Positions 1 to 54,050 of a stretch of 64,000 nucleotides of DNA are shown here, one piece after another; the stretch's first letter is position 1; each line of letters opens with the position of its first letter. A program made the position numbers and the translations under genes. The DNA is from Bacteroidota bacterium. GTDB taxonomy: Bacteria > Bacteroidota > Bacteroidia > B-17B0 > Aurantibacillaceae. Location: the NCBI GenBank assembly GCA_947450025.1, contig CANFTW010000004.1:62001-126000 (forward strand). The letters run 5' to 3'. The notes below the pieces were generated by a model. It worked only from the letters and a program-made list of their open reading frames with translations, made no database searches and was not told the origin of the DNA.

Positions 1-831
1 TGTTAATTGAGATAATCCATATACTAGTTTTGAATCAGTCATAAAAACACCTGGTTTATAACTACTTGTTCCGTCCTTAAGGTTAGAAGTAATTAGATTA
101 GAATTATTAAAAAGTATATCAAGACCAAGCTGTACCTTAGAAAATTCACTTGTGGAATTGAGATTTGGATTTTGCTCAAACGCTGCTCCAATATCATTAT
201 AAATTTGCCTATAACTTAAATTTGGATCGTTTCCAATTGTATTAACATAACTTGTAAGAATGTTTTTTAAATTTCCATTAGGCATATTATTTGAAAGATT
301 TAAAATAAATTTATCATCAATATTTAACGGATTATCAGGATTTTTTTCAAGTTGGATTAGGATAGCCTTTAATGTTTTCGATAATTCTTCGTTACTAGAA
401 CCTTTTTCTTTTTAATTAATATCTATCCCTAAATTATTATTGTTATCAATATTTGTAGTATTAGATGTAATTCCTTGATTTGCAACTTGAGTGTTTGATT
501 TTCCAACCATTATGCCCCATTCCGGCTCTTTACTCAGATATTCTGGACAACAATATGGCTGGCCCATTTGTTTAATATTGCCTTTACAAGCTGTAATCAT
601 GGCCGAAACTTTTCTTTTATCCTCAACTTTTTCACAATATTTTGCTGAACAAAAATATAATGCAAGCATGGCACATTGTGAACAGCCTTGGGCGTCTTGA
701 GTTTCTGTTAACTTTTTGTATTTAGCCATTTCTGAGTCTTTGGCTTCTGTACATTGCCCAAAAGCTTGTATTTGGCTCTGAATAAGGATTATAATTAAAT
801 AATATTGTATAAATTTTAGTTGTGTTGTCAT
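1..831 (-). pseudogene. Secreted Cys-rich-module protein split by an in-frame stop; 3' end off the window
   Basis: Translation from the ATG at 831 gives a signal peptide (hydrophobic run, ending near QAFGQ) followed by a Cys-rich module with CTEAKDSEMAKYKK, GCSQCAMLALYFC, TACKG and PYCCPEYL, eight cysteines in all. An Asn-rich linker then ends at a TAA (412-414). The same frame is open for all 137 remaining codons to the window edge, encoding a plausible soluble region (EELSKTLKAILIQLEKNPDN and onward). I therefore read 1-831 as one gene interrupted by a single nonsense codon, or one using readthrough. A real 139-residue protein followed by an unrelated frame is less likely. The module is about 88% identical in protein to the one at 2624-3805. 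No known family is recognised. A sequencing error at the stop cannot be excluded. Confidence 0.7.
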
Positions 832-1540
832 TTACTTGTAAATTATTATGTAATGATCTAAATTACTGAATACTACTTAAATAATTTATTTTTTTATAGA
901 TTATAAATTATAGTCTCTAATATTTATTAAATATTTAATACAGAAGTGATATTATCTTTCCAATTGGATTATTATATGCAGAAATTATAGAATAGTTTAT
1001 TATTATTATTATAGTTTATATTTTCTGATTTAAGACCGGGTATATATCAATTTTATCTTTTTAGTTTTGAGCTTTTACTTTAAATTTAAAATAAAATTAA
1101 TTATTTATTCAAAAATTATCAAGAAAATTAAAAGATAAATCATAATTAAAAAACCAAAAAAATTTCATTAACTTTAATTTTATATCTATCGAAATTTTAA
1201 ATTAATTAATCGTATAATAAAAATATTTAAACATTATTTAAATTTTGATAAGACTTTTTTTATTTTGGATTTAAAAAATAGAAAGGTGTATTATTGGTTA
1301 TGTCATGTAAATTAAAATGTAAATTTAATATAATTAAAATGAATAATATTTTTATTTAATATTTTCTCGTTCATAATATTTTATTTTTATATTTACTTGT
1401 CTTAAATTCTGTTTTATAGTTATTATTTTCCAAATTATGCAAGATACATCTATACAAATCATTTACAAGTCTTCTGAAAACAATTAAATATTTAATTTCA
1501 AAAATTATTACAATAAAAAATTAATTATTTTGAAACTATT
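832..1540. other. Gene-free, very A+T-rich divergent spacer
   Basis: No ORF, RNA gene or exact TAnnTTTG box was recognised in these 709 bases, which separate the divergent starts at 831 and 1541. An imperfect inverted repeat just before the start at 1541 (TTTCAAAA near 1496 against TTTTGAAA near 1530) is the only structure noted. The region should hold both promoters, but none can be called with confidence. Confidence 0.6.
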
Positions 1541-2605
1541 ATGAAAAAAAAATATTTGTTCGAATTTAAAAATTTAGATGTTTTTAAAAATGATTTTTTT
1601 TTGCAAATCAAAAATATTTTATTTGCACTACTTTTTATAAATATTTTTCAATTAAAAGCTCAAACAGGAAATAAAAATAATATTACAAATAATTGTGATG
1701 CTTTAGTGAAATATCGAGATGAAATACTGATTCTTAAGTATGATAAAATAGCAAAAGATTATTCCGTTAAAAAGGATAATTTAAACTGGATAATTGCTAT
1801 GAAGCAAGAAGCAAAAGACGAATCAAAATGGGCCGCAAGTAATTCAGTCGGAATCTTAAAATACATTAATACAATTTGTAACGGAATCCAAAATGCATTT
1901 GCTATTGCAAGTCCTCAAGGCAATATTTTAAACTTAGCAAAAAAAATCCATGATGTTGATCAAATAAAAAGGAAAGAAAAATATTTTAATACTTTTTCTA
2001 AATCAATAGAAAATATTGAAAATCTCATGGCAGAGGATATTGAACAGGAATTAATTAAGGGTGCGCTTGTTAAAGAAACAGGCACTATTGGAGCTATTTA
2101 TTCTTTTTTTGATGATGCAAAAAAAGATTTAAAGGATATTAAAGATTGGAAACAATTAAGAATTGATGTAAATAATCAGTTATTAATGTTTGAAAAAAGT
2201 ATTATAGTCTATCAGGAAAAGTATGACTCTGAATTAAAAAAATTAGATCAGATAAATAGATACAATAATTACATAGCCGAATATTTAAATGAATATTGTA
2301 AAAAATCAAACAATATAATTGATAGTAAAGCATCCGCCAAGAATGAGTCTATTGGCGATAAAAAACTTTTAGCAACCTACAAGGAAGATGGGAAATGGAT
2401 AGCAATGGGACCATATATGACGACCGAGGGTTTTCCTTCTGAAAAGGAAGCATTAGAGTCTCTCTTTTATACTGAATCGGATATTACATTCCTTTGTCAA
2501 AGAGAAAAATATAAAATATATACATTAAATGAAAAAGTAAAACATGATGCAAGGGATATAAGAGCTTATTTAAAATCAATCGGTATAAATGACATCCCTG
2601 AATAG
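1541..2605 (+). CDS. Uncharacterised secreted protein with helical, coiled-coil-like middle
   Basis: 354 residues, family not recognised. The N-terminus has a long basic region, then a hydrophobic core (about residues 24-39) ending in LKAQ, consistent with Sec export. Residues 50-260 are rich in Lys, Glu, Asp, Ile and Leu, with long helical stretches and no obvious catalytic motif. The C-terminal segment (GKWIAMGPYMTT, then PSEKEALESLFY) loosely resembles the C-terminus of the next gene (TSEKDANSLRDSFLY), which suggests a shared terminal domain. It is first in a tight co-directional cluster: the next start lies 18 bases downstream. Base composition is strikingly A+T-rich compared with genes right of 6000. 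Confidence 0.65.
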   Translation: MKKKYLFEFKNLDVFKNDFFLQIKNILFALLFINIFQLKAQTGNKNNITNNCDALVKYRDEILILKYDKIAKDYSVKKDNLNWIIAMKQEAKDESKWAASNSVGILKYINTICNGIQNAFAIASPQGNILNLAKKIHDVDQIKRKEKYFNTFSKSIENIENLMAEDIEQELIKGALVKETGTIGAIYSFFDDAKKDLKDIKDWKQLRIDVNNQLLMFEKSIIVYQEKYDSELKKLDQINRYNNYIAEYLNEYCKKSNNIIDSKASAKNESIGDKKLLATYKEDGKWIAMGPYMTTEGFPSEKEALESLFYTESDITFLCQREKYKIYTLNEKVKHDARDIRAYLKSIGINDIPE

Positions 2606-2623
2606 ATAAATTAAAGTTACAAA

Positions 2624-3805
2624 ATGTTAACTAAAAAACGTTATTTAATATTCATTTTCTTAATTATGAAAATGACTGTATTTGCTCAATGCACTGAGGC
2701 AAAAGACTCAGAAATGGCAAAATATAAAAAATTGACAGAAACAAAAGATGCGCAAGGCTGCTCGCAATGTGCGATGTTGGCTCTTTACTTTTGTTCAGCT
2801 AGACACACGGTTTCTGTTGAAGACAAAAGAAAAGTTTCGGCCATGATTACAGCTTGTAAAGGCAATATTAAGCAGATGGGTGAGCCATACTGCTGTCCTG
2901 AATATTTAAATAAGCAACCAGAATGGGGAAAAGAAGCAAATAGCAATGATAAAGCTAATAATAAAGAAAATAATAATACTACAGATTTAGAAAATAAACT
3001 TAATGATGTCATTGTTTTTGGACAAAAATTAGAAAAAAGTTATTATTCAATGCAAGAAGTTGATAAAAATAGAAAAGAGCTAAACGAACTTTCATCACTT
3101 AAAGGAAATTTTAATTCAGTTGAAGAAATAGAAAATGTATTTCAGGAAAAGTTTAATAAAATAGCAAGTACTGTTGATAAAACTGTAGAATCGGAAAACT
3201 CTGCAATAGTTGATAACATTGCTACAATGAATCAATTGACTGGAGGGAATGAACTTATAGGGCAAGGAGTTGGATTAGTAGCAGGACTATTAAACAATAT
3301 TACCGCAGAAGATAGAAAAAGGGAATATGAAGAAAGATTGAAAAAACAAAAAGAGGAACAAATAAATAGATTAAAAGCAATGAAAGCTAGTCAGGTTGTT
3401 GAGGTAAGAAAAGCATTATTTTCAACTTTTCCAGATGGAGGTTTACCCGCGTCGTCTAAATCAATTGAAAATCAAGTTATTTATATTTTCTCATATAGTG
3501 CAAATCAATATACAATTATTAGAGATAAACCGACGCTCACTGTAACCAATGTTTTCAAGATAACAAGAAATGAAAACGGAACCTGGCCTTTTAAGAATGC
3601 AATACTAAAAAATTTACAATCTCAATTTAACAATGAAAATATCCCTATAATACTTGGCTTTTTTACCTCAGAAAAAGATGCCAATAGCTTAAGAGATTCA
3701 TTTTTATATTTAGCAAGCCAATGTGATTTTGATTTAAAATTTTTAACCTACACAAATAATAATGAAACAAATGATAAAAATGGCAATGATTTTTGGGAAA
3801 AGTAA
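2624..3805 (+). CDS. Secreted protein with N-terminal Cys-rich module (second copy)
   Basis: 393 residues. Residues 1-22 form a signal peptide ending FAQ, directly followed by the Cys-rich module (about 23-100) with seven cysteines: one at the mature N-terminus, GCSQC, YFC, TACKG and YCC. The spacing matches the interrupted copy at 1-831, which has one extra Cys. After an Asn/Lys-rich linker the protein is helical and charged (about 120-265, with EEIENVFQEKF and EDRKREYEERLKK), with a short Gly-rich stretch (GQGVGLVAGLL) between. The C-terminus has a mixed alpha/beta segment. With paired Cys and export the module is probably disulfide-bonded, but no family is recognised. The next gene overlaps its 3' end. 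Confidence 0.65.
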   Translation: MLTKKRYLIFIFLIMKMTVFAQCTEAKDSEMAKYKKLTETKDAQGCSQCAMLALYFCSARHTVSVEDKRKVSAMITACKGNIKQMGEPYCCPEYLNKQPEWGKEANSNDKANNKENNNTTDLENKLNDVIVFGQKLEKSYYSMQEVDKNRKELNELSSLKGNFNSVEEIENVFQEKFNKIASTVDKTVESENSAIVDNIATMNQLTGGNELIGQGVGLVAGLLNNITAEDRKREYEERLKKQKEEQINRLKAMKASQVVEVRKALFSTFPDGGLPASSKSIENQVIYIFSYSANQYTIIRDKPTLTVTNVFKITRNENGTWPFKNAILKNLQSQFNNENIPIILGFFTSEKDANSLRDSFLYLASQCDFDLKFLTYTNNNETNDKNGNDFWEK

Positions 3806-4727
3806 AAAGACGGAAAAATTGTTAATTATGAGTTTTATTTGCTTTGCAAATATGCAAATAATTGGACAATCAAAAGATGCAAATATCGTCTTTGTTCAGG
3901 CGGAAGAAAAATATAATGAAAAAAACTATAATGAAGCGCTTTCAAAATTACAATTATATGAAAATTTATCAAGTGCATCCAAAGAAAAAGCTCAGGTTTT
4001 AAAAATACAAATATACAGGGAACTTGCTTTAAAAGACAAATCGCAAGTTGTTAATTACAATAATTCCATCGAAGAATTAAAAAAAATGTATTCAGATGGA
4101 AAAAAAATTAATGTTGATGATTTGTATAGAATATTAAAAGAACAGCAGGAATTTGGAAAAGATGCTATCACTAATGCTAAAGATGATCTTAGCTCTTCAT
4201 CAAGTGAAATCAACATAGATGGTATTAAAATAGGAATGAATATAGAAGAAATACCATCGCAAATCGCTGCGAATTTTGATTGGAATGAAGGTGTAAAAGG
4301 ACAAGCTAATAACCAAATGAATTATGTTCCATTAATTTTCACTCCTAAAAAAGCCGGTACAGGAAGTGGTTTTAATTTTAAACTTGCAGGTATTCAAAAT
4401 ATAATCGCAGACGATAGAACTCGAAGAGTTATTGAAGTTTTTAAATTTACTGAAAACGGAAAATATAAGGAAAAAGACAAAACAGGATTAAGTAAATATA
4501 ATTCAATGGTTGAAGAATTAAAAGTAAAATATGGTAAAAGTAATATTACTGAAAATCCAGTGCGGATTAGTACAAGCAAGATTATGAACAGAGAAATGAC
4601 TACTGAATCTTATAGCACGATTTTACGTTCAAAATCAGTAACATACACTTTAACATACTCAATTGTTAATGGTGACAATTACTCAATAATTGAAATGTTA
4701 TGTATTCCAGATTATTTAAAAAACTAA
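3780..4727 (+). CDS. Secreted TPR-like protein, paralog of the next gene
   Basis: About 315 residues from the ATG at 3780. The open frame reaches back to an ATG at 3762, but starts at 3780 or 3786 give a better signal peptide (KSKKTEK, then LLIMSFICFANMQIIGQ). Mature residues begin with a TPR-like helical pair (AEEKYNEKNYNEALSKLQLYE). A Ser-rich linker then leads to a C-terminal domain starting IDGIKIGMNIEEIPSQI. The next gene has the same order of parts, so the two look like tandem duplicates that have diverged widely. The start lies inside the 3' end of the preceding gene, consistent with translational coupling. Function unknown; export and protein-protein contact through the TPR are inferred. 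Confidence 0.6.
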   Translation: MAMIFGKSKKTEKLLIMSFICFANMQIIGQSKDANIVFVQAEEKYNEKNYNEALSKLQLYENLSSASKEKAQVLKIQIYRELALKDKSQVVNYNNSIEELKKMYSDGKKINVDDLYRILKEQQEFGKDAITNAKDDLSSSSSEINIDGIKIGMNIEEIPSQIAANFDWNEGVKGQANNQMNYVPLIFTPKKAGTGSGFNFKLAGIQNIIADDRTRRVIEVFKFTENGKYKEKDKTGLSKYNSMVEELKVKYGKSNITENPVRISTSKIMNREMTTESYSTILRSKSVTYTLTYSIVNGDNYSIIEMLCIPDYLKN

Positions 4728-4731
4728 ATTT

Positions 4732-5586
4732 ATGAAAAGTCTAGCATTTATTATACTATTATTTTTATTTAGTCAAATCGTTTTCGCACAAGGTACTGAC
4801 CTTGCAATAAAGGCATATAAAGATGCGGAATTAGCATTTGATAATGGTAATTACGAAGATGCATTATCAAATTTAAATATTGCAGAAACAATGTTAAAGA
4901 AAACAAACCCGAAAATCCAAGAACTTAAAAGAAAATCATATAAGCTGTTAGCATTTTTAGACAGTGCAAAAAATTTCGAGTCATACTCTTCTTATGTAAA
5001 TGATTTAAATACGAAAAAATCTAGTTTAGCAAATAATGCAGTCATTGAGAAAAATAATTTTTCTAAAGAAAAAGTACTTTTTTTAGAAAACAAAAAAAAC
5101 AGTTTAATAAATCCTATAGAGAAAATTACACTTGGCCAATCATTTTCAACAATACAAAAACAGTTATATAACTTAATTGATTTTGAAAATCCAATAGAAG
5201 AAAATCATTTTATTCATTATATCAGAAAAGCTTCTTCAACAGAAACGGAAATAGGACTTTACGAAATTTCCGTTGATAAAAACAATGATAGAATTGTAAA
5301 AATTACTGCGATTTTTAAATCTTTTACATTTGAAGAATTTCAAAAGCAAAATATGAGTAAATTTTATAATGAAAAATTTTCAAAGTTTGGACAAAATGAT
5401 ATTTCTTCAGAAAACAATGTTTCAAAAATTAAAAAAAAGGATTATAATATTGCTATCACTCGAGCAAAAATAGATAATTCTACTTCATACTTTATAAGTT
5501 TATATACACCAACAAAACTTAAATATAAGGACTTAACAAGTAGTAATTCAATGTATTTTTATATGGAAGGTTATGAAATTAAATAG
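4732..5586 (+). CDS. Secreted TPR-like protein, last gene of the accessory operon
   Basis: 284 residues. The signal peptide (MKSLAFIILLFLFSQIVFAQ) is clear. A TPR-like pair (AYKDAELAFDNGNYEDALSNL) follows, then a charged helical linker and a C-terminal domain beginning PIEKITLGQSFSTIQKQL. The layout mirrors the upstream neighbour (IKIGMNIEEIPSQI at the equivalent point), supporting an ancient tandem duplication. Only four bases separate it from that neighbour. No catalytic motif was seen. Very low G+C. No strong terminator follows directly; A+T-rich sequence continues to about 5760. Confidence 0.6.
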   Translation: MKSLAFIILLFLFSQIVFAQGTDLAIKAYKDAELAFDNGNYEDALSNLNIAETMLKKTNPKIQELKRKSYKLLAFLDSAKNFESYSSYVNDLNTKKSSLANNAVIEKNNFSKEKVLFLENKKNSLINPIEKITLGQSFSTIQKQLYNLIDFENPIEENHFIHYIRKASSTETEIGLYEISVDKNNDRIVKITAIFKSFTFEEFQKQNMSKFYNEKFSKFGQNDISSENNVSKIKKKDYNIAITRAKIDNSTSYFISLYTPTKLKYKDLTSSNSMYFYMEGYEIK

Positions 5587-5770
5587 TTAATAAAAATTAA
5601 ATTAATTAACAGTTTTTAATTCGTAGAATTTTATAATTATATATTTCTAATATTTTTCTTTTCATAAAATACTAATAGATATTTTAAAATTAGTAAAGTA
5701 AATCTAAAAAACACACATAGTTTTAAAAGAGTAAAAAAATACAGATTCGAATAAATAAAAAATTTAAAAT

Positions 5771-5796
5771 TTTTGTAGAAATAGGGAATCGAACTG
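5771..5796 (-). other. tRNA 3'-end-like fragment (possible attachment-site remnant)
   Basis: Read on the minus strand, this segment resembles the T-loop and 3' acceptor strand of a tRNA (TTCGATT, then CCC and TTTCTAC). The 5' half of a tRNA is absent: the preceding bases do not form the T-stem. It lies where very A+T-rich accessory genes give way to core genes. Tyrosine-recombinase elements commonly leave such tRNA 3' ends as attachment sites. No integrase is seen here, so this is only a suggestion. Confidence 0.25.
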
Positions 5797-5843
5797 TTTA
5801 AAATCTTCATATACTAAAGATATTATATTTTTCCGCTTTTTCT

Positions 5844-5911
5844 GAATGTCTTTCGCTACATTCTGGCTCTTTGCTAAAAACATCCACTGGATGTTTTCTT
5901 AACGCAAAGCC
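5844..5911. repeat. Nested inverted repeats in the island/core spacer
   Basis: Three stem pairs occur in 68 bases: GAATGT (5844) with ACATTC (5858); AAAACATCCA (5877) with TGGATGTTTT (5888), a near-perfect odd palindrome with one central base; and GGC..TTTGC (5865-5874) with GCAAAGCC (5904-5911) enclosing the latter. No T-run follows, so this is not an ordinary terminator. It could be a small repeated element or a protein-binding site. Confidence 0.5.
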
Positions 5912-5956
5912 CTGATAAACCGAAGTTTTTACAAAATGTTCATTTTAACATATAAA

Positions 5957-5988
5957 AAGCCTCAAGCCCCAAGAAATTCTTGAGGCTT
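5957..5988 (-). terminator. Terminator of tex
   Basis: AAGCCTCAAG (5957-5966) pairs perfectly with CTTGAGGCTT (5979-5988) around a 12-base loop. It lies just past the tex stop codon, and a T-rich tract follows on the minus strand. Confidence 0.8.
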
Positions 5989-6006
5989 CATTAAATCTAT
6001 CTTAGG

Positions 6007-8253
6007 TTATTTCTTAAACTTTCCTTTCAATGCCGCTAATGCCGACATCATATCATTTGGATCGTAGCTTGCTACTTCTTCCTTTTTAGGAGTTGGTTTT
6101 TTATGCGCTGTAATGCCTTCGCCTTTCATAGATAAAGCAATACGCTTACGTTTTACATCGCATTCGGTAACATTTACCCACACTTGCTGCCCAACTTTCA
6201 CCACTATGTTAGGATCATCCACAAATGTATCACTCAACTGAGAAATATGCACTAAACCATCTTGATGAACACCTACATCTACAAAGGCACCAAAATTTGT
6301 CACGTTAGTTACAATACCCGGTAAGCGCATTCCTTCTCTTAAATCTTCAATGCTATGCACATGCTCATCAAAACTAAATACTTCAAATGATTTACGAGGG
6401 TCGCGACCTGGTTTTTCCAACTCACTCATAATATCTTTTAAGGTTGGTAAACCAATGGCATCGGTTACATAAGACATTAAATTTATTTTTTTACGTAAGT
6501 CTTTATCCTTTATCAAATCGTCAATACTGCAATTTAAATCGCTAGCCATTTTTTCTACAATATGATATGCCTCTGGATGCACCGCACTTTTATCTAATGG
6601 ATGAATGCCATCTCTGATGCGCAAAAACCCAGAACATTGTTCAAATACTTTATCGCCCATACGATTCACTTTTAATAACTCTTTACGAGATTTAAAGGCA
6701 CCATGTTCGTTACGATAGTCCACAATGTTTTTAGCTAAGCCCTCTCCAATACCTGACACATAAGACAGTAATTGTTTAGAAGCCGTATTTAACTCAACCC
6801 CTACTCCATTTACACAGCTCATAACCACGTCATCCAATTTATTTTTTAAAGCCGTTTGGTCTACATCATGCTGATACTGGCCAACACCAATGGATTTAGG
6901 ATCTAACTTTACTAACTCTGCCAATGGATCAGCCAAACGACGACCAATGGATACGGCACCACGCACGGTTAAATCGTATTCAGGAAATTCTTCACGAGCC
7001 ACATCTGATGCTGAATAAATAGATGCCCCAGCTTCGCTCACCATAATCACCGGAATTGTTTTTGGTAATACTTCAATACTTCTAATAAACTGTTCAGTTT
7101 CGCGAGAAGCCGTTCCATTACCAATGGCAATGGCTTCTAATTCGTATTTAGCACATAATGCCATTACCACATGTTGTGAATCCATCACACGTCGTTGAGG
7201 TTCATGCGGATAAATGACGGTTTCTTCTAATAACTTACCTTGTGCATCTAATGCCACTACCTTGCATCCTGTTCTAAAACCAGGATCAATGGCCAACATA
7301 GATTTTTGTCCTAATGGTGACGCTAATAATAACTCACGTAAATTATCGGCAAACACCTGAATAGCTTTTTCATCTGCTGTTTGCTTTGTCATTAAACGCA
7401 TTTCGGCTTCAATGCTTGGCTGCAATAAACGTTTGTAACCATCCTCAATGGCTAAAGCAATTTGCTCGGCACATTCGTTTCGAGAGATGATGAATTGTTT
7501 TTTTAATTGTTCATGTGCTACTTCATCATCAATGATGATATCTAAAATTAAAAAATCTTCTTTCTCTCCACGACGCATCGCTAGCATTCGGTGACTTGGA
7601 CAAGACATTAAAGGTTCTTCCCACTCAAAATAATCTTCAAATTTTTGACCTTCTTCTTCTTTCCCTCTAATCACTTTTGTTTTAATAATCGCCGACTTCT
7701 TGAACAATGTTCTCATGCCTTCACGAGCCACCGCATCTTCACTCATAATTTCAGAGATGATATCTCTTGCTCCAGCTAACGCCTCATCAGGATGTTCAAC
7801 ATCTAATTCTTTATTCACATATTGTAAAGCCTCCGGAAACAACTCTTTAGTTTGTTGCGCTAATATTAATTGAGCTAATGGCTCTAAACCTTTTTCGCGA
7901 GCAACAGTAGCTTTAGTGCGGCGTTTTGGTTTGTAGGGTAAATACAAATCTTCTAAAGTTGATAAAGTTTCGGCAGCCGTAATTTTATCGGATAACTCTT
8001 GAGTTAACTTACCTTGGCCTTCAATAGATTTTAAGATACTTTCTCGTCGTTGTTCTAATTGACGTAAACGTTCAATTTCATTTTTAATGGTAATGACCTG
8101 TACTTCATCTAAACTACCAGTGACCTCTTTTCGGTAGCGAGAAATAAATGGTACGGTGGCACCTTCGTCTAATAATTCAACGGTTGATTTTACTTGCTTG
8201 GCATCGATTTTTAATTCGGCGGCAATTTTAAAAAATAAAGAAGCGTCTGTCAT
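6007..8253 (-). CDS. tex: Transcription accessory protein Tex (S1 RNA-binding)
   Basis: 748 residues, the normal length of the Tex/YhgF family. The order is canonical: N-terminal helical region (ELLDEGATVPFISRYRKE), YqgF-like RNase H fold (LAIDPGFRTGCKVVALD), helix-hairpin-helix (VSGIGEGLAKNIVDYR) and a C-terminal S1 domain (LPGIVTNVTNFGAFVDVGV, LVHISQLS). Tex binds nucleic acid and influences transcription and stress tolerance. It is transcribed alone, with a -7 box at 8282-8289 and a terminator at 5957-5988. It marks the start of core-like, less A+T-rich sequence. Confidence 0.95.
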   Translation of the reverse strand: MTDASLFFKIAAELKIDAKQVKSTVELLDEGATVPFISRYRKEVTGSLDEVQVITIKNEIERLRQLEQRRESILKSIEGQGKLTQELSDKITAAETLSTLEDLYLPYKPKRRTKATVAREKGLEPLAQLILAQQTKELFPEALQYVNKELDVEHPDEALAGARDIISEIMSEDAVAREGMRTLFKKSAIIKTKVIRGKEEEGQKFEDYFEWEEPLMSCPSHRMLAMRRGEKEDFLILDIIIDDEVAHEQLKKQFIISRNECAEQIALAIEDGYKRLLQPSIEAEMRLMTKQTADEKAIQVFADNLRELLLASPLGQKSMLAIDPGFRTGCKVVALDAQGKLLEETVIYPHEPQRRVMDSQHVVMALCAKYELEAIAIGNGTASRETEQFIRSIEVLPKTIPVIMVSEAGASIYSASDVAREEFPEYDLTVRGAVSIGRRLADPLAELVKLDPKSIGVGQYQHDVDQTALKNKLDDVVMSCVNGVGVELNTASKQLLSYVSGIGEGLAKNIVDYRNEHGAFKSRKELLKVNRMGDKVFEQCSGFLRIRDGIHPLDKSAVHPEAYHIVEKMASDLNCSIDDLIKDKDLRKKINLMSYVTDAIGLPTLKDIMSELEKPGRDPRKSFEVFSFDEHVHSIEDLREGMRLPGIVTNVTNFGAFVDVGVHQDGLVHISQLSDTFVDDPNIVVKVGQQVWVNVTECDVKRKRIALSMKGEGITAHKKPTPKKEEVASYDPNDMMSALAALKGKFKK

Positions 8254-32677: not shown

Positions 32678-35600
32678 TTACTTTAGTAAAGTTACATGAC
32701 CAATATATTCATGTTTTTTATCAAACACATCGGTTAGTTTAACTTTCCAAACATATACATCTTGTTGTACGATATTATCATGTCCTAGTTTTTTACCATT
32801 CCATCCTTTATAGATATCGTCTGTGTAAAATATTTTTTCTCCCCAACGATCGAATACCCACATTTCATACTTCTGTATTCCTATACCCATTCCTGAAAAA
32901 TAATCATTGATTCCATCAGCAGACTCTGGCGTAAAGGCATTAGGTATATAAAAAGTAAACTCTGGTTTTATTTCAATTGGTAAGGATACTCTATCTTCAC
33001 ATCCATGTATAGATGTCGCAATTAATGTAACAACGTATTCACCTGAATTTACATACATATGACTAGGATTAACCTCTGTAGATGTATTATTAATTCCGGA
33101 TGAAAATGGGTCGCCAAATCCCCAAACAAAAGAGAAAGCTCCTTGCGAGGTATTTACAAATGAGATATTCGGATCCGTAATCGTTCCAAAGGAAGGATTA
33201 GTATAGAACGAAGCTACTGGCATAGGATATACCTCAATCATGTCAGGAATACTAAATGTATTTGAGCATTGATGATTTGTAGTAGCAGTTAAAGTAACAC
33301 TATATAAACCGGCATTGGAGTAACAATGTGCTGGATTTTGACTCGTGCTAATTCCTCCATCACCAAAATTCCATAACCAAGACTGAATAACATCAGGCGC
33401 AGTAACATTTGATTGATCTGTAAAATTAACACAATGTGCTGGACATCCTGTAGGATTATCAACTACGAAATTAATCACAGGTTTCTTATAAAAATTAATT
33501 TGAACCGTTGATGTTACATTTTGACATGGAGCTGTAGCAATAGCCGTTAACGTTAATGTTAATGAGCTATTTAAAAAATCACTTGAAGTAGGATGATATT
33601 GAGCATTTAACATGGTATTATTTACACTAAAAACACCTGAACCTCCAGACCAAACTGCACTATTAGCAGATCCACCTAGAGTTCCATTTAATTGAATACT
33701 ACTAACACCTTCGCAAGCAAACGCAGAACTGCCTGCATTAACAGTTGGCAAAGGTAATACTGTAACTATAACGCTTGCATTTGATTGGCATGATGTTGCA
33801 ATATCTGTTGTAAGAACAGTATATGAAATATTTACAGGATTTAAACCTGAATTTGTTGCAGTTACAGACGGATTAGAAACAGATGTATTGTTTAAATTAA
33901 TTGCAGGAGACCATGAATAAGTATAATTAATATCTGGATTTGTACCTAACACTCCTGTTTGTCCTGAACAAATTGTGATTGGACTTCCTGCGATTGATTG
34001 AGGTATCGGATTAACCGTAACTTGAACCTGATTACTTGCTTGACAACCATTAGAAGTAACTGTTAAGGAATAGGTTGAAATTGAAGGAGACGTTCCTAAA
34101 TTACTCAATGTGACTGTTGGATTAGAAATGTTTGAATTACTTAATCCTATTAACGGATACCAGGAATATGTATATCCAGATGAAGGAGAAGATCCTATTA
34201 TCCCTGATTGACCATTACAAAATGCAATTGCATTACCGGCATTGGCAATTGGCAATTGATTAACTATTACCTGAGTTTGTGCTGCACCAACACAACCGTT
34301 TGCACTTGTAACGGTTATACTATAATTAGTAGTAATTGTTGGAGTTACAACAGAACTAGATGTATTTGAAAAACCAATGTTCCCTGGAGAATCCCATGAA
34401 TAAATATTTCCTGCGCTTGTGGGACTGACACTCAACGTTGCGTTTCCACCTATACAAATTGTTTGATTAGGTGATGCGCTAACTGATAAAAAATTTAAAA
34501 CATTAGCTATGGCTGCAGAAAATGGGCTCACACATCCAAATGTATTGGTTGTATTGACATAATAGGAGGTAGTTGTGCTTAGGCCTGGTGTAGAATATGA
34601 TGGATTAGTCGCCAACAAAGTGCCTCCAACATTATTAGAATACCAATTATACGTTCCTCCTGGAGCAGTTGCTATTAATGTAGCGGATGAACTAGGACAT
34701 ACCGTTACATTTAAAACGGTTGGAGCTAAGGGGTTTGGATTTATTGTTATCGTAAAACTTTCTGGAATTCCAACACAAGAATTTAAGGATGGCGTAACTG
34801 TGACAATCCCACTTAGTGAAGTTGTTCCATTATTAGAAGATACAAATGAAGGTACATTTCCTGTTCCTGATGTTCCTAATCCATTTGATGAATTTGAATT
34901 TACCCAATTGTAAGCTGTTCCAGAAATATCTCCAGTAAAAGTTGTGCCTGCTACTGTTGATCCTGTACAAACAGTTGAACCCAAAACAGCATTAACCGTA
35001 GGAATTGGATTTACTAAAACAGTATAATTCGTAGGAGTTCCTATACAAGAATTTGCAGAAGGCGTTACTGTAATAATCCCCAATATAGGAATCAATGTTG
35101 TGTTTGTGGCACCAAAAGTAGTAACAATACCTATACCAGAAGTACCTAATCCAATAGATGAATTTGTATTAGACCAACTAAACGTTGTACTTGTCACACT
35201 TCCAGAAAAAACAGTTGAAGGAACAGTAACACCTGCACAATATGTTGAACTAGTAACCGCATTTACATTAGGAATTGGATTTACTAAAACAGTATAATTC
35301 AAGGGAGTTCCTATACATGAATTTGCAGAAGGCGTTACTGTAATAATCCCCGATACGCCAGAATTAGTATTATTGATTGCATTAAATGAACCAACTACTC
35401 CAATACCAGAACCTGGAGCACCTATACTAGTATTTGAATTAGTCCAATTAAATACAGTACCTATCACATTTGCTGAAAAAGAAGTTACTGGAACATTACT
35501 AGCACTGCAATACGTTGAACTCGGCACACTACTAACTACTGGTATTGGATTAACATTCACAGTAAAATCTGTTGGAATACCTATACAAGAATTTGCAGAA

Positions 35601-37678
35601 GGAGTAACCGTAACCACTCCAAATATTCCTGAAGTGCTTGTATTTATTGCACCAAAAGCTGCTATATTTCCTGCACCAGAAACTCCTAATCCAATAGATG
35701 AATTTGTATTAGACCAACTATAGGTTGTACTTGTTACACTTCCAGAAAAAACAGTTGAAGGGACAGTAACACCTGCACAATATGTTGAACTAGTAATCGT
35801 ATTGATATTAGGTATTGGGTTAACCGTAATTGTATATATAATTGGAGGTCCAACACATGAATTAGCTGTTGGTGTAACAGAAATGATTGCGTTTATAGGT
35901 GAGGCGCTTGTATTTACAGCTGTAAAACTTGGTGTATTTCCAGATCCATTTGGTAACAGACCTATTGAATTATTACTATTTGTCCAACTATATGTTGTTC
36001 CTGCAACCGTACTGGAAAAAACCGAAGCTGGAACAATTGAATTATGACAAATAACAACATTTGTAGGAGTTAACATTGTAGGCAATGGATTAACCGTTAC
36101 CCTGCTAAGAGCAGTATCTTGACATCCGTTAATATCTGTATATGTAACTGTATAAATTGTTGTTGACGTTGGGGAAGGAGATAATGAAGCTCCTCCTCCT
36201 CCTCCAGGAGACCAAGAGTATGTCCCTGCTCCATTATTAACAGTTGATGTTAACAATGCTGCTGTTCCATTACAAACAGTTTGAGAGTTTGCTGATGCTA
36301 ATGCAGCAGGATATAAAGAAACTGAGTACGTTAAAAATGTTTGACAATTAGAATATGATGTTAATTGACAGGTATAAGTTGTTGTCGTTGTAGGAGTAAC
36401 AGCAACAGTTTGTGTAGTTGCTCCCCCAGGTGTCCATGAATAGGTAAATAATCCAACAGGTGCACTTAACACTGTTGATTTAGAAGGGCATACTTTATTA
36501 ATACCAGTAATAGCTAAAGGAGAGCAATTAGCGTCGATATATGCGTAAGCAAAATGGGCTCCTCTAGTACAATCGCCAACAGTATATCTCACGGTTACAC
36601 AAGTTCCAATATATGGAGTTAAATCCACAGCAACTGGCGACCAATTTTTATAATAAACATTAGATCCTAATCCTGCCAAAGTAAAGCCGGGTATACCAGG
36701 GCCTCCAGTGACAAGATATTGACCGCATGCCACTGGATTACCTGAACAGTCATAAATATCCGTTTTAAAAAAAGGTTGTTCTTGATTTGTATGATCAGAT
36801 CCTGCATCCTGCAAAACAACCGCATAATAATAAACGAATAAGGCATTAGATGCGGTTACTGTAAATTTTTGTTCTAAGGATGCTCCGCATGCCCCGGGAA
36901 TACCTCCATAATATTGGCCAGTTAAACCAAACGTACCAAAATCTCCTAATCTGATAGAATTCGTTCCCCCTGAAGGATTAACGATTGGAAACCCTCCATA
37001 TGGGTCAACTCCTGCTCCACTTGTTACAGAATGTTGGGTAGGAGAAGTCGAATAATACATTGGAATATAAGTTGGCGTTGGCGCTCCTGCCGCTCCAATA
37101 TTAACACAACCAGTAGTCCCAATCCAACCAGATAAATTTCCATTATCATATCCTATATTAGTGCATGCTGGCTGCAATGTTGCTGCTGGTGGATTTACAT
37201 GATATTGAATATTTAAAGAATAACTAATACATGTTTCAGTAAATGTTGCTGTTGGATAATTATCAATCATTACATAATAACAACTGCCTGCGGTGGCTGT
37301 GACAGATAAAATACTATTAATATAATTTGCACCTGTAAATGATGTCGAAGCCCAATTAGATCCGCTAGCATTAGGAACAGAAGTATATACCATCACTGCT
37401 GGAGGTGTTCCATATACATTGTTCATCAAAATATCTATCACTCCTGAAGTTGGTGCACAAAAATAATATAACCAATCACTTCCATCTGGAGTAATTCCAT
37501 ATGGACCTAGTGGATTATAATTGTTTACGTGGCCACAAGTGGTGCCTGATGCTGAAAATGGAAGTGTAATTGGGCTTGCTGCTGCTGCTGCTGCATTATC
37601 GCCTCCTTGTGAGAAAGACTTCTGCGAAAATGAAAATAAAAAAATTAAAGAAATTTTAATAAATAAAATTTTTCTCAT
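32678..37678 (-). CDS. Giant secreted adhesin-like protein with T9SS type B sorting domain
   Basis: 1666 residues. A signal peptide (to about 23) is followed by an N-terminal domain (to about 400), Ig/PKD-like units, and a block of five about 90-residue repeats (about 530-985) each beginning near NPIPxVNAVxSSTYC and ending with ITVTPSANSCIGTP. More Ig-like units lead to two PKD domains (about 1400-1575, with SWLWNFGDGGIST). The last 85 residues form the CHU_C/gliding-motility-associated sorting domain (FYIPNAFTPE..DGINDYF, VFDRWGEKIF, HVTLLK). The last signature is the type B signal for export by the type IX system. A cell-surface adhesin or matrix protein is inferred. Stand-alone gene. Confidence 0.9.
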   Translation of the reverse strand: MRKILFIKISLIFLFSFSQKSFSQGGDNAAAAAASPITLPFSASGTTCGHVNNYNPLGPYGITPDGSDWLYYFCAPTSGVIDILMNNVYGTPPAVMVYTSVPNASGSNWASTSFTGANYINSILSVTATAGSCYYVMIDNYPTATFTETCISYSLNIQYHVNPPAATLQPACTNIGYDNGNLSGWIGTTGCVNIGAAGAPTPTYIPMYYSTSPTQHSVTSGAGVDPYGGFPIVNPSGGTNSIRLGDFGTFGLTGQYYGGIPGACGASLEQKFTVTASNALFVYYYAVVLQDAGSDHTNQEQPFFKTDIYDCSGNPVACGQYLVTGGPGIPGFTLAGLGSNVYYKNWSPVAVDLTPYIGTCVTVRYTVGDCTRGAHFAYAYIDANCSPLAITGINKVCPSKSTVLSAPVGLFTYSWTPGGATTQTVAVTPTTTTTYTCQLTSYSNCQTFLTYSVSLYPAALASANSQTVCNGTAALLTSTVNNGAGTYSWSPGGGGGASLSPSPTSTTIYTVTYTDINGCQDTALSRVTVNPLPTMLTPTNVVICHNSIVPASVFSSTVAGTTYSWTNSNNSIGLLPNGSGNTPSFTAVNTSASPINAIISVTPTANSCVGPPIIYTITVNPIPNINTITSSTYCAGVTVPSTVFSGSVTSTTYSWSNTNSSIGLGVSGAGNIAAFGAINTSTSGIFGVVTVTPSANSCIGIPTDFTVNVNPIPVVSSVPSSTYCSASNVPVTSFSANVIGTVFNWTNSNTSIGAPGSGIGVVGSFNAINNTNSGVSGIITVTPSANSCIGTPLNYTVLVNPIPNVNAVTSSTYCAGVTVPSTVFSGSVTSTTFSWSNTNSSIGLGTSGIGIVTTFGATNTTLIPILGIITVTPSANSCIGTPTNYTVLVNPIPTVNAVLGSTVCTGSTVAGTTFTGDISGTAYNWVNSNSSNGLGTSGTGNVPSFVSSNNGTTSLSGIVTVTPSLNSCVGIPESFTITINPNPLAPTVLNVTVCPSSSATLIATAPGGTYNWYSNNVGGTLLATNPSYSTPGLSTTTSYYVNTTNTFGCVSPFSAAIANVLNFLSVSASPNQTICIGGNATLSVSPTSAGNIYSWDSPGNIGFSNTSSSVVTPTITTNYSITVTSANGCVGAAQTQVIVNQLPIANAGNAIAFCNGQSGIIGSSPSSGYTYSWYPLIGLSNSNISNPTVTLSNLGTSPSISTYSLTVTSNGCQASNQVQVTVNPIPQSIAGSPITICSGQTGVLGTNPDINYTYSWSPAINLNNTSVSNPSVTATNSGLNPVNISYTVLTTDIATSCQSNASVIVTVLPLPTVNAGSSAFACEGVSSIQLNGTLGGSANSAVWSGGSGVFSVNNTMLNAQYHPTSSDFLNSSLTLTLTAIATAPCQNVTSTVQINFYKKPVINFVVDNPTGCPAHCVNFTDQSNVTAPDVIQSWLWNFGDGGISTSQNPAHCYSNAGLYSVTLTATTNHQCSNTFSIPDMIEVYPMPVASFYTNPSFGTITDPNISFVNTSQGAFSFVWGFGDPFSSGINNTSTEVNPSHMYVNSGEYVVTLIATSIHGCEDRVSLPIEIKPEFTFYIPNAFTPESADGINDYFSGMGIGIQKYEMWVFDRWGEKIFYTDDIYKGWNGKKLGHDNIVQQDVYVWKVKLTDVFDKKHEYIGHVTLLK
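34730..36090 (-). repeat. Five tandem about 270-bp units encoding PKD-like repeats
   Basis: Each unit encodes about 90 residues. Long DNA matches survive between units: 35151-35256 and 35691-35796 differ at only four of 106 positions, and 35001-35081 resembles 35271-35351 at 270-bp offset. The near identity at a two-unit distance indicates recent duplication of a two-unit block or conversion between units. Confidence 0.85.
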
Positions 37679-47570: not shown

Positions 47571-48437
47571 GTGGAAACTGCCGAATTACTTAAAAAAGTA
47601 AGAAAGATTGAAATTAAAACGAAGGGTTTAAGTAACCAGATATTTTCTGGCGAATACCACTCTGCGTTTAAAGGTCGCGGTATGGCGTTTAGTGAGGTAA
47701 GAGAGTATACGCCTGGTGATGATGTGAGAACAATAGATTGGAATGTAACGGCTCGTTTAAGAACTCCATATGTAAAAGTTTTTGAAGAAGAGCGCGAATT
47801 GAGTGTGATGATTTTAGTTGATGTAAGTGCCAGTGGTTTATTTGGAACACAACAGCAATTAAAAAAAGATCTAATTACTGAACTATGTGCTGTCATTGCT
47901 TTTTCAGCATCTCAAAACAACGATAAAATTGGAGTCATCTTTTTTAGTGATAAGATTGAAAAATTTATTCCACCTAAAAAAGGAAAATCACATATTTTAA
48001 GAATAATCAGAGAACTTATTAATATAGAACCAGAACAAAAAGGAACCAATATTGAACTCGCTCTAAAATACTTAACTAATATAATCAAAAAGAAAAGTGT
48101 CTGTTTTTTAATCTCTGATTTCAGAGACAATCATTCATATGATGATGCCATGAAAATAGCGAATCGTAAACATGATCTAGTTGCGTTAAGAATTAATGAC
48201 AAACATGAAAACACCCTGCCTAATGTGGGTTTAATAAAACTAAAAAATAACGAAACTGGCAAATTAATGTGGATTGATACTAATGATAAGCATTTTAAAA
48301 AGCAATTAGAGGTGAATCATTTAAAATTTGAAGCACAACTAAAAGATACATTTACAAAAAGTGGCGTTGATTACACAACTATTCAAACACACGAAGGATA
48401 TATTAAACCCTTAATGACTTTATTTAAAAAAAGGTAG
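47571..48437 (+). CDS. DUF58 domain protein (VWA-like)
   Basis: 288 residues from a GTG start (47571). The DUF58 core KGRGMAFSEVREYTPGDDVRTIDWNVTAR is intact, followed by a VWA-like stretch with a metal-site-like DVSAS (ILVDVSASGLFG). DUF58 proteins accompany MoxR ATPases and are probably their membrane-proximal partner. No membrane helices in this version. The next gene starts with a GTG overlapping its stop by one base. Confidence 0.9.
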   Translation: METAELLKKVRKIEIKTKGLSNQIFSGEYHSAFKGRGMAFSEVREYTPGDDVRTIDWNVTARLRTPYVKVFEEERELSVMILVDVSASGLFGTQQQLKKDLITELCAVIAFSASQNNDKIGVIFFSDKIEKFIPPKKGKSHILRIIRELINIEPEQKGTNIELALKYLTNIIKKKSVCFLISDFRDNHSYDDAMKIANRKHDLVALRINDKHENTLPNVGLIKLKNNETGKLMWIDTNDKHFKKQLEVNHLKFEAQLKDTFTKSGVDYTTIQTHEGYIKPLMTLFKKR

Positions 48438-49420
48438 TGAATATAAAAAAACACATATTAATTATTTTTTCTGTTTTAACATTATCATATGTTAAAGCTC
48501 AAACACATGTTGAAGTTCATGCTGTTTTAGATTCAAGTATAATTAGAATTGGTGCTCAAACAAAATTAAATATATACTTAAGCTACGATGCTTCTGCACA
48601 AAAAAACTTAGATATTATTTGGCCTTTCATTGAAGACACCTTAAGAAAAGAAATTGAAGTTGTTCATGTTTCTAAAATTGATACAACAATTCCAAATAAA
48701 AACAAACCGAATCTTGTTCAACAACATCTTGAGTTAACTATCACATCTTTTGACTCTGGGGCATACTATATTTCTCCATTTAAATTTATTCTTAATAAAG
48801 ATACTGCAAACCCTCTATATACAGAACCTTTACAACTTATTGTTCATACAGTTGCAACAGACACATCCCTAGCAAAAGTAAAAGACATCAAAGCTCCCTT
48901 TGATGAACCTTTTGATTGGAAATGGTATTTACCATATGCCTATTGGGGATTAGCGATCTTAGCAATAGCAATTATAATCACACTCATTATCATAAAACTA
49001 AACAAGAAAAAACCTCAAGAGATTATTATCGAGCAACCAAAAATTCCTGCTCATATAACAGCATTAGAAACACTAGGAAAGATAAAAGAAGAAGCTATTT
49101 GGAAAGATAACAAAACCAAAGAGTACTATTCATCTATTGCTGATACAGTTCGTTTATACATTGAAGAACGATTTGGTATTAATGCTTTAGAACTTACTTC
49201 TGACGAAATTATTAAAATATTTAAATCTCAAGTCGTAGATTCTGAAAGTAAATCAAAACTATCGCAAATTTTAGTTCTTTCTGACTTTGTAAAATTCGCA
49301 AAACAAATTCCTATAGAAACCGAACATACGCTGACTTTAAATAATGCCTTTGATTTTGTAAAAGGTACCATGCGAGAAGAACAAATTACAAACCAACAAA
49401 ACGAACAAACAGGTGCTTAA
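48437..49420 (+). CDS. Membrane protein of the Bat operon (DUF4381-like)
   Basis: 327 residues. A signal peptide (ILIIFSVLTLSYVKAQ) is followed by a beta-rich periplasmic part, one membrane helix (about residues 170-190), and a cytoplasmic C-terminal region with the conserved YYSSIADTVRLYIEERFG. The layout resembles a short BatD or DUF4381 protein. GTG start overlapping the DUF58 stop; the next gene starts eight bases before its stop. Confidence 0.78.
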   Translation: MNIKKHILIIFSVLTLSYVKAQTHVEVHAVLDSSIIRIGAQTKLNIYLSYDASAQKNLDIIWPFIEDTLRKEIEVVHVSKIDTTIPNKNKPNLVQQHLELTITSFDSGAYYISPFKFILNKDTANPLYTEPLQLIVHTVATDTSLAKVKDIKAPFDEPFDWKWYLPYAYWGLAILAIAIIITLIIIKLNKKKPQEIIIEQPKIPAHITALETLGKIKEEAIWKDNKTKEYYSSIADTVRLYIEERFGINALELTSDEIIKIFKSQVVDSESKSKLSQILVLSDFVKFAKQIPIETEHTLTLNNAFDFVKGTMREEQITNQQNEQTGA

Positions 49421-50423
49421 CTACTTCAAAGACATACAATTTGCCGAAAAGCACTGGTTTTGGTTATTTATGATTGTTCCAATCATGATTGCATGGTATA
49501 TATATAAACTAAAAACGCAAGAGGGAGAAGTTAATTATTCGTCATTTACATTATTTACCGGAATTAAATCATCTCTAAAAGCTAAATTCAGACATGTTTT
49601 ATTTGTATTAAGATTATTTTGTGTGTCATTACTCATTCTTGCCATTGCAAGACCACAATCACGAAGCAGCTGGAAAGATACTAAAACAGAAGGCATTGAT
49701 ATCGTCGTAAGTTTAGATTTATCATTATCAATGCTTGCTAAAGATTTTAAACCTAACCGATTAACCGTAGCAAAGGAAGTATTAAGTGATTTTATTGATG
49801 CTAGACCTAACGACAAAATAGGCTTAGTTGTTTTTGGAGGCGAAGCTTTTACTCAGTGCCCATTAACCACTGACCATAAAATTATCAAAAACATGTTTAA
49901 TGACATACAAGCAGGCATGCTAGATAATGGGACAGCCATTGGTCTTGGATTAGCCGATGGCGTAGCTCGTGTGAAAGACAGCAAGGCAAAAAGCAAAGTT
50001 GTGATATTAATTTCTGACGGCGTTAATAATGCTGGCGAAATAGCGCCATTAACCGCTGCAGATATCGCTAAAACATTTGGCGTTAGAGTGTATTGCATAG
50101 GCGTTGGAACAAAAGGAAAAGCGTTACAGCCTATAGCCATGTATCCAAACGGACAAATAGAATATGATTATATGGATGTTGATATTGATGAAGCTACTAT
50201 GACTCAAATTAGTAAAATGACTGGTGGTAAATATTTTAGAGCAACAGATCGTGAAAGCTTAGAGAAAACTTATAAAGAAATTGATCAATTAGAAAAAACC
50301 ATTATTAGTGAAAAAAGTTTCACTAATAAAGCAGAGCATTTTTTACCATTAGCAATTGCAGCAGCCATTTGTCTATTATTAGAATTTTTATTAAAACGCT
50401 TTGTATTTAAAGCCATACCGTAA
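49413..50423 (+). CDS. batA: BatA, VWA-domain membrane protein
   Basis: 336 residues from a GTG. Two N-terminal membrane helices (about 15-30 and 58-75) precede the VWA domain with a MIDAS of the form DLSLSM (about residue 94), the TTD/threonine around 150 and ISDGVNN. A C-terminal helix closes it (FLPLAIAAAICLLLEFLL). VWA domains bind metal-dependent protein ligands, here probably the other Bat proteins and MoxR. A sequence-similar batB follows directly, with a one-base overlap (TAATG). Confidence 0.88.
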   Translation: MLNYFKDIQFAEKHWFWLFMIVPIMIAWYIYKLKTQEGEVNYSSFTLFTGIKSSLKAKFRHVLFVLRLFCVSLLILAIARPQSRSSWKDTKTEGIDIVVSLDLSLSMLAKDFKPNRLTVAKEVLSDFIDARPNDKIGLVVFGGEAFTQCPLTTDHKIIKNMFNDIQAGMLDNGTAIGLGLADGVARVKDSKAKSKVVILISDGVNNAGEIAPLTAADIAKTFGVRVYCIGVGTKGKALQPIAMYPNGQIEYDYMDVDIDEATMTQISKMTGGKYFRATDRESLEKTYKEIDQLEKTIISEKSFTNKAEHFLPLAIAAAICLLLEFLLKRFVFKAIP

Positions 50424-51466
50424 TGTTTAAATTTGAACATCAAATATTTTTTTATGCATTAGCAATCATTCCGATATGTATAGGAATTTATATTTGGTAT
50501 GTACGTCAATCCAAAAAGAATTTAAAAAAACTAGGCGAATTACACTTAATTAAACAATTAATTCCAGAAGTTTCAAATACTAAGAAAAATATAAAATTTA
50601 TTTTATTTATTCTTGGATTTGTATTTCTTATTTTAGGATTATGTAATTTACAAACAGGCTCTAAATTACAAAATGTAAAACGTGAAGGTGCTGACATTAT
50701 GGTTTGTTTAGACGTTTCCAATAGTATGATGGCTCAAGATTTATCTCCAAACAGATTGGAAAGAGCTAAAATGGCTATTGAAAATATGATAGACAAATTG
50801 GAAGGAGATCGATTAGGAATTATTGTATTTGCTGGCGAGGCATACGTTCAATTACCGATCACAACCGACTATAATTCTGCCAAATTATTTTTAGATGGAA
50901 TAAACAATAAGATTGTACCAGTTCAAGGAACTAATATTGCTGAGGCTATAAATTTATCTATCGAAAGTTTTGGAAAAGACGAAGGTAAAAACAAAGCAAT
51001 AGTGATTATTACTGATGGAGAAAATAATGAAGAAGCAAATGAAAGTGCTGTTGATGCTGCTGAAGAGGCATCAAAGAAAAATATTGTCATTCACACCATA
51101 GGTGTTGGTTCTGAATCAGGAGTGCCTATTCCAAATGTTATTGACGGAGTTGTGACTGGTTATAAAAAAGACAAAGATGGGAACACGGTAGTCACAAAAT
51201 TAGATCCTAAAATTTTACAAAACATAGCGTCAGCTACAAATGGTGTTTACGTTCAAGCTACTAGCTCTGATATTGGCCTTGACGCTATATTAAATAAAAT
51301 GGATGAGCTAGATAAAAAACAACTGGAAAGTAAAATGTATACTGATTTTGAAGATCAATTTCAGTGGTTCTTAGGGTTAGCGTTATTATTTTTAGTAATT
51401 GAATCATTTATATCAGAGAGAGTAAGCAAAATTTTAAAAAAATTAAATTTATTTAATCATGCATAA
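50423..51466 (+). CDS. batB: BatB, second VWA-domain membrane protein
   Basis: 347 residues. N-terminal helices (about 5-25 and 55-75), MIDAS DVSNSM (about residue 95), VFAGEAYVQLPITTDYNSAK and ITDGENNEE, with a C-terminal membrane helix. It is a paralog of batA with the same layout. In the family BatA and BatB are thought to form a membrane complex. Start codon overlaps the batA stop; it overlaps batC by eight bases. Confidence 0.88.
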   Translation: MFKFEHQIFFYALAIIPICIGIYIWYVRQSKKNLKKLGELHLIKQLIPEVSNTKKNIKFILFILGFVFLILGLCNLQTGSKLQNVKREGADIMVCLDVSNSMMAQDLSPNRLERAKMAIENMIDKLEGDRLGIIVFAGEAYVQLPITTDYNSAKLFLDGINNKIVPVQGTNIAEAINLSIESFGKDEGKNKAIVIITDGENNEEANESAVDAAEEASKKNIVIHTIGVGSESGVPIPNVIDGVVTGYKKDKDGNTVVTKLDPKILQNIASATNGVYVQATSSDIGLDAILNKMDELDKKQLESKMYTDFEDQFQWFLGLALLFLVIESFISERVSKILKKLNLFNHA

Positions 51467-52229
51467 AGAGTCCAGATATATCTATATTTTGTTTTCATTG
51501 CTGATTATAGGTTTAACTTGTTTTTCACAAGAAGAGAAAATGGCTCTAAGAAAAGGTAATGATGCTTACCATAGTGGAAAAATATTGGAAGCAAGTAATC
51601 ATTACAAAAAGTCACTAAACTCAAAACAAAATTATTATAAAGCTAATTTCAATTTAGGAGATGCGTTATACAAAACTGCAAGCTTAATAAAATCAGGTAA
51701 AATAGCGCCACCAAATAAAAAAATGACCGCTGACTCAGCCGCTAACATTATTTTTGATCAAGCCTCCGAGCAATTTGAAATTGTTGCAAAAACAGTATCA
51801 CATGCAGATACTATTCAAAAGGCTTGGCATAACTATGGTAACTCAAAACTAATGCAAGGTAATTATGAAGATGCGATATTTGGTTATAAAAAAGTTCTAA
51901 AGTTAAATTCCAAAGATGAAGACACGCGTTATAATTTAGCTTACGCTCAAAAAAAATTAGCAGAACAACAAAAGAACAAAAAAAACAAAGACGACAAAAA
52001 AGATCAAAATCAAAAAGATCAAGAGAAGAAGGAACAAGATAAAAAAGAAAAAGAAAACATAAATAACCAAAATAACAAAGATAAACAAGAAGCTCAGCAA
52101 CCTCAAATGAGCAAGGAACAAGCCGAGAAAATGTTGAATGCTTTAAAAAATGATGAAAAAAAAATGCAGTCACTGAGAAAGAAAAAAAGTGATGCTACAC
52201 AAAAACCAAAAGTTGAAAAAGATTGGTAA
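51459..52229 (+). CDS. batC: BatC, TPR protein
   Basis: 256 residues. A signal-anchor-like N-terminus (about 6-23) is followed by TPR units (ALRKGNDAYHSGKILEASNHYKK, then AWHNYGNSKLMQGNYEDAIFGYKK). The C-terminal third is a Lys/Asp/Gln/Glu run (KKDQNQKDQEKKEQDKK), ending in a conserved MSKEQAEKMLNALKNDE motif. In other Bat operons BatC supplies TPR contacts to BatB and BatD in the periplasm. It overlaps batB by eight bases. Confidence 0.88.
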   Translation: MHKESRYIYILFSLLIIGLTCFSQEEKMALRKGNDAYHSGKILEASNHYKKSLNSKQNYYKANFNLGDALYKTASLIKSGKIAPPNKKMTADSAANIIFDQASEQFEIVAKTVSHADTIQKAWHNYGNSKLMQGNYEDAIFGYKKVLKLNSKDEDTRYNLAYAQKKLAEQQKNKKNKDDKKDQNQKDQEKKEQDKKEKENINNQNNKDKQEAQQPQMSKEQAEKMLNALKNDEKKMQSLRKKKSDATQKPKVEKDW

Positions 52230-52234
52230 TAAAC

Positions 52235-54046: not shown

Positions 54047-54050
54047 TAAC

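Follow-up and report, generated by a model that had tools for sequence, protein, structure and literature searches.

The question raised by this locus is whether four closely packed genes, all coding for exported proteins, form a functional set or only share a place in the genome. They are situated on the + strand of the window, i.e. the whole stretch of 64,000 nucleotides that was analysed (contig C4:62001-126000), in a 3.2-Mb Bacteroidota genome. The ORF coordinates (Table 1) agree with the tight packing reported in a preliminary description of this DNA: genes 1 and 2 are separated by 18 nt, genes 3 and 4 by 4 nt, while genes 2 and 3 overlap by 44 nt, or by 20 nt should the ninth codon of gene 3 be its start. 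The very AT-rich region upstream of gene 1 is presumed to hold the promoters for both directions. The Bacteroidetes promoter motif gave fewer matches in this region than in shuffled sequences, and sigma-70-type motif matches, about two standard deviations above shuffles, are uninformative because the DNA is so AT-rich. Within the genome gene 1 is present in a single copy, gene 3 has one further match (E=0.025), and the Cys module of gene 2 occurs twice, both times at this locus.

Table 1. Coordinates of the features of the locus, given as window positions unless a contig position is indicated.
Feature	Position	Strand	Remarks
AT-rich accessory insertion, about 8.2 kb	1..6006; contig C4:59811-68006		Between the 135-aa exported-protein gene and Tex
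Divergent gene, broken: Cys module, propeller-like part, SHOCT tail	1..831, runs on to C4:60315 outside the window	-	
In-frame TAA interrupting the divergent gene	412..414	-	Sequence read directly
Cys module, second copy, 81 aa	514..756	-	Protein 89% identical to the gene 2 copy (alignment A4)
Divergent intergenic region, very AT-rich, presumed promoter region	832..1540		GC about 19-22%
Gene 1: exported protein, variable N-terminal helical region and C-terminal GPY domain	1541..2605	+	
GPY domain, about 81 aa	2360..2602	+	Alignment A6; profile search; conserved in the gene that immediately precedes Cys genes
Gene 2 (hub): Cys module, coiled/low-complexity linker, GTWPF domain, DFW tail	2624..3805	+	
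Cys module of gene 2	2687..2929	+	87% mean column identity over nine copies
GTWPF domain of gene 2	3422..3754	+	Alignment A7; AF2 pLDDT 84-94 over most of it; class search
C-terminal DFW tail of gene 2	3788..3802	+	NDFWEK, degenerate form of DFWGNPxKD
Gene 3: exported, TPR-like N-terminal module and unclassified C-terminal domain	3762..4727	+	Possible start ATG 3786
TPR-like N-terminal module of gene 3	3867..4100	+	Alignment A11; profile E=7.4e-23 (sequence itself within profile)
Gene 4: paralogue of gene 3	4732..5586	+	24% identity over 255 aa, E=8e-6, two-sequence comparison
TPR-like N-terminal module of gene 4	4789..5010	+	Alignment A11
Tex gene	6007-8253	-	Insertion flank

The GC content around the four genes is 26%, against 32-34% in the flanks. 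In a sibling genome (G016) the homologues of Tex and of the 135-aa gene lie only 235 bp apart, with the remaining flank in the same order, and the region of about 8.2 kb is therefore considered an accessory insertion. The spot beside Tex was found to be variable within the genus (loci L057-L064), with other small genes in G003, G004, G005 and G012, and may represent a variable insertion site. Neither integrase or transposase genes nor a tRNA were found at the insertion site. A segment at its right edge (5760-5945), proposed by eye as a tRNA remnant, was rejected as it is unique in the genome and has no Rfam or ARAGORN match; a T-loop-like string, GAATCGAAC, is located within it. An origin from a phage, plasmid or viral contig was likewise discarded after searches of those collections gave no matches.

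The divergent Cys-module gene facing the operon, previously described as a short gene, turned out to be the start of a much longer one. After the single TAA at which the ORF 412-831 (-) ends, 698 further sense codons follow in the same frame, giving 838 codons in total. The continuation contains putative propeller-like repeats and a SHOCT domain (PF09851, E=1.2e-9). Since the frame stays open past the lone TAA and a homologue without a stop is present at locus L009 (32% identity over 624 residues), this is a broken long gene or a sequencing error, and not a small partner of the four genes. No propeller-type C-terminus was found in eight other genomes, mostly cassette-bearing, by a search that included no positive control.

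Database searches were performed for all four genes. No match above the cut-off was found in Pfam and none in NCBIfam, PHROGs gave no convincing match, a PDB sequence search gave no significant one, and eight proteins compared with the PADLOC defence models had no match at E<=0.01. Structures of the gene 1 and gene 2 proteins, predicted with AF2 from 11 sequences, gave no significant match in a fold search. For gene 1 only the GPY domain was predicted with confidence (pLDDT about 76-94 up to residue 330, then 67-87), most of the protein remaining below 50, too low for the fold search to bear on its overall fold. For gene 2 the Cys module was predicted to be helical (pLDDT about 74-92) and the GTWPF domain to be of alpha/beta type. 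The view that no known system has this set is thus supported for its core modules, and alignments confirm that gene 2 has a Cys-rich module and that genes 3 and 4 are paralogues. The coiled coil assigned to gene 1 corresponds to predicted helices, but these are of low confidence and are its sole basis. Grouping GPY and GTWPF in a single domain family found no support (hhalign probability 0.7%).

The order of GPY gene, gene with the 81-residue Cys module and TPR gene(s) was found in three other Bacteroidota genomes. In UBA4416, of the same genus, the set occupies a different genomic place and consists of GPY, Cys/GTWPF and a TPR protein with a predicted beta-barrel-like end; in G125 (L019) a second TPR protein with an Ig-like end follows; L011 encodes GPY, Cys/GTWPF, a TPR protein and a TPR protein with a beta-barrel-like end. 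In three more (L009, L010 of Algoriphagus alkaliphilus, and L013) the GPY gene lies directly upstream of the Cys gene, whereas at L018 (G298) no GPY gene accompanies the Cys gene. The module is rare. At least five loci were detected in 84,980 species scanned, a lower bound because the scan requires degenerate exact patterns, and profile searches found it in 3/395 class and 2/395 phylum genomes, samples that overlap and both include the genome of the window. It was absent from the viral, plasmid and phage collections searched. In the class sample the GPY profile matched strongly only in the window genome and G125, both Cys-bearing, and five other matches (E=0.002-0.007) look like chance. The TPR-module profile at 1e-6 similarly recovered only these two among 325 genomes. 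The GTWPF domain has a wider range than the cassette: in G365 and G410 a GTWPF gene is followed by four TPR-module genes, with neither Cys nor GPY genes, and G039 and G085 have GTWPF alone, without TPR-module genes.

The gene set is more than a chance grouping, since other genomes carry its homologues in identical order, and the maintenance of this order in different families, together with purifying selection on the shared module, speaks for a functional set. It is a real, rare and horizontally spread operon of putative Bacteroidota envelope proteins. The preliminary description had named, as the outcome that would speak against it, members of known families with unrelated functions and no shared surroundings; instead, the neighbourhood is conserved in genomes of different families and the core modules belong to no named family. 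Unrelated orphan genes in a loose cluster, travelling together as island cargo and forming no complex, would agree with the patchy distribution, the low GC, the broken copies and the unrelated genes found near the same spot in other siblings. Such a cluster would not be expected to keep a fixed order across families although its copies have long diverged, nor would its Cys module be expected to be under purifying selection or the tail to coincide with TPR genes (see below), and we consider this explanation rather improbable.

The Cys module consists of 81 residues and nine copies could be aligned without indels, the G125 copy carrying a short insertion. Six to eight cysteines are present per copy, with two or more lost in some copies. 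Between distinct loci, leaving aside the near-identical pair L011/L013, the module is 72-86% identical in protein although roughly 50-85% of fourfold sites are changed, and this indicates long divergence under strong purifying selection, as judged from the codon comparison. That a module so well preserved occurs in a handful of species is an unusual evolutionary pattern. At least four different continuations follow it: GTWPF, Sel1/TPR-like repeats, a propeller-like part as read from its repeats, a low-complexity region and a segment with hydrophobic stretches. L010 contains two nearly identical copies (3028-3420 and 4515-4907) of a 393-bp segment, which spans the last part of the GPY gene, the spacer and the Cys module and breaks off at the module boundary. 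The last GPY codons thereby precede the second Cys gene as well, as in a cassette that has been displaced.

Polymorphic toxin systems are defined by a toxin domain, an immunity gene and a trafficking domain (Zhang et al. 2012, PMC3482391). The cassette resembles them in its conserved exported N-terminal module with varying C-termini, its duplicated module cassettes and its island location, and differs in having no toxin domain, adjacent immunity gene or known trafficking domain, its recognisable variable parts being binding domains. As a polymorphic conflict system, the Cys module would serve for delivery or processing, with the variable C-termini acting as effectors against other cells and being exchanged via displaced cassettes; the single conserved N-terminal module with differing ends, the near-identical duplication at L010 ending at a module boundary, the rapid turnover, the broken copies and the AT-rich mobile island could all be read in this way. 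However, no toxin family was detected with Pfam, NCBIfam or PADLOC, which cover known families only, in the scanned proteins of the window and its relatives, and those C-terminal parts that can be identified (PDZ, Sel1, SHOCT) are for binding, not toxins. In the window and at L011, L012 and L019 the genes downstream of the variable ends are exported TPR-module genes, and none is a small cytoplasmic gene with a single domain, of the immunity type; no secretion or delivery gene was found. A conflict system therefore appears to us an improbable explanation.

The TPR-like N-terminal modules of genes 3 and 4 are homologous across loci (G125 TPR1 matched gene 3 with E=6e-8 and gene 4 with E=8e-8 in a 15-protein database), and the assignment as TPR is a provisional one, made from the sequence pattern and weak profile matches. 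Elsewhere the C-terminal partners of these modules are PDZ, Sel1, Ig-like or, by prediction, beta-barrel-like. The idea that genes 3 and 4 share their C-terminal domains with the G410 and G365 paralogues was not supported by hhalign. One G410 paralogue (L036 7346-8237, -) carries a frameshift, its C-terminal half being readable in another frame.

A short tail was found at the C-terminus of some hub proteins, as gene 2 and its counterparts at other loci are called here. Typically it contains two copies of DFWGNPxKD, while the window hub has one short form. The tail, D[FY]W[GEDN], is present in all six hubs with TPR-module neighbours and missing from the three hubs that have no such neighbours; L009 and L010, cut by contig ends, and L013, where it is deleted, are left out of this count. 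Among background ORFs the motif occurred anywhere in the protein in 2 of 93. In L013, compared with L011, the GTWPF part, the tail and the TPR genes were lost together. This coincidence could hint at how the exchangeable parts are held, and is suggestive only, as the nine loci are related and thus not independent; that the window's own tail is short and degenerate also weakens the case. Docking of the TPR modules on the tail is possible on these grounds, and we hold it as a doubtful proposal. Since no TPR-module genes were seen with the Cys genes of L009, L010 and L018 (the first two loci being cut by contig ends), the Cys module must be able to act without them.

The location of these proteins was approached through their leaders. 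All four carry hydrophobic leaders ending, as judged by eye, at Gln (LKA|QTGN, VFA|QCTE, IIG|QSKD and VFA|QGTD), in agreement with the earlier claim of signal peptides on each. Gln after the cleavage site follows the Bacteroidetes Q-rule for signal peptidase I substrates (PMC5837995). A lipobox is absent from genes 1-4, the residue preceding the first Cys being Gln, and neither a type IX sorting domain nor a Por/Gld family match was found in them with Pfam and NCBIfam. The same library does detect a CHU_C type IX sorting domain in another window protein, one of 1666 residues with Ig-like and PKD domains (32678-37678, -), and the organism therefore probably has type IX secretion. No secretion-system gene was recognised in the gene set, its leaders are of Sec type only, and no trafficking-domain family was matched. 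The proposed undescribed envelope or secreted assembly thus holds, as far as testable, in being undescribed; that it is secreted, or a single assembly, is a conjecture, and the set contains none of the marks of secretion that were looked for. Because the proteins are exported without surface-sorting signals, contain Cys-rich modules and have beta-barrel-like or PDZ partners in relatives, the periplasm and outer membrane would be the simpler location.

Taken with the conserved order, these properties lead us to a cassette of accessory genes, horizontally mobile, whose interchangeable parts would form a periplasmic/outer-membrane complex, tail docking included, a reading that we favour tentatively and hold at somewhat below an even chance. 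The hub protein (gene 2) would be exported and then disulfide-bonded. Its N-terminal Cys module would offer an unchanging surface for contact, probably with the GPY protein of gene 1, and its linker would lead to the C-terminal tail, read by the TPR-like modules of genes 3 and 4. The C-termini of the TPR proteins, unclassified here, would set what is attached or where. As parts turn over, the task may be guessed to be a strain-variable envelope function, e.g. adhesion, uptake or protection. A further step, that the near-invariant disulfide-rich module and the tail-reading TPR module constitute a categorically new, self-contained modular envelope system, appears to us unlikely at present. If true, a mobile cassette would re-equip the envelope with exchangeable domains, using no toxins, immunity genes or secretion machine of its own. 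Many exported proteins of Bacteroidota have no family or function, and this cassette is compact and conserved as a set. It makes one specific prediction, that a C-terminal tryptophan motif docks interchangeable TPR adaptors encoded alongside, and confirmed docking could unite several orphan families as one system.

The cysteines could alternatively point to metal handling, the module binding Cu(I) or another soft metal, which its partners would store or move. Six to eight Cys in a helical module of 81 residues would suit this, and the best structural lead, a weak one, is a dimeric periplasmic cuprous-ion-binding protein (7vw1), likewise small and helical and sharing the presumed periplasmic location of the Cys protein. 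This match, a fold comparison only, is non-significant (Foldseek E=2.0), and its VIA Z of 6.4 with an rmsd of 3.8 over 75 residues is under the level meaningful for helical folds. The loss of two or more Cys in some copies fits disulfides equally, and no transporter, P-type ATPase or metal regulator was present in the loci read. Metal handling is accordingly regarded as very improbable.

Two known groups of envelope proteins can be compared with the favoured complex. Outer-membrane components of PorE type, from type IX secretion and gliding, combine TPR and propeller modules. The exported Bacteroidota proteins described here also have TPR modules and propeller-like ones, but on separate proteins; an OmpA-like domain was not detected, and por/gld genes are absent from the loci read. 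In the second TPR protein of L011 the N-terminal module weakly matches, at the TPR level, the outer-membrane assembly lipoproteins BamD/YfiO (TIGR03302, E=8e-6), with 25.5 bits against a curated cut-off of 81.4; BamD/YfiO is universal, whereas the cassette is accessory. Genes 3 and 4 gave no BamD/YfiO match in NCBIfam, and their leaders end at Gln with no lipobox.

Some other genes nearby can be mentioned. M1-peptidase-like and small exported-protein genes (L003 243-2612 and 3157-3768; L035 17568-19000) are found no more than about 4-14 kb away from the cassette, in the window genome as in G365, either by chance or as an old shared location. The run of DUF58, BatA, BatB-like VWA, TPR, BatD and TPR-SH3 genes at 47571-54809 of the window is the usual Bacteroidota aerotolerance (Bat) operon.
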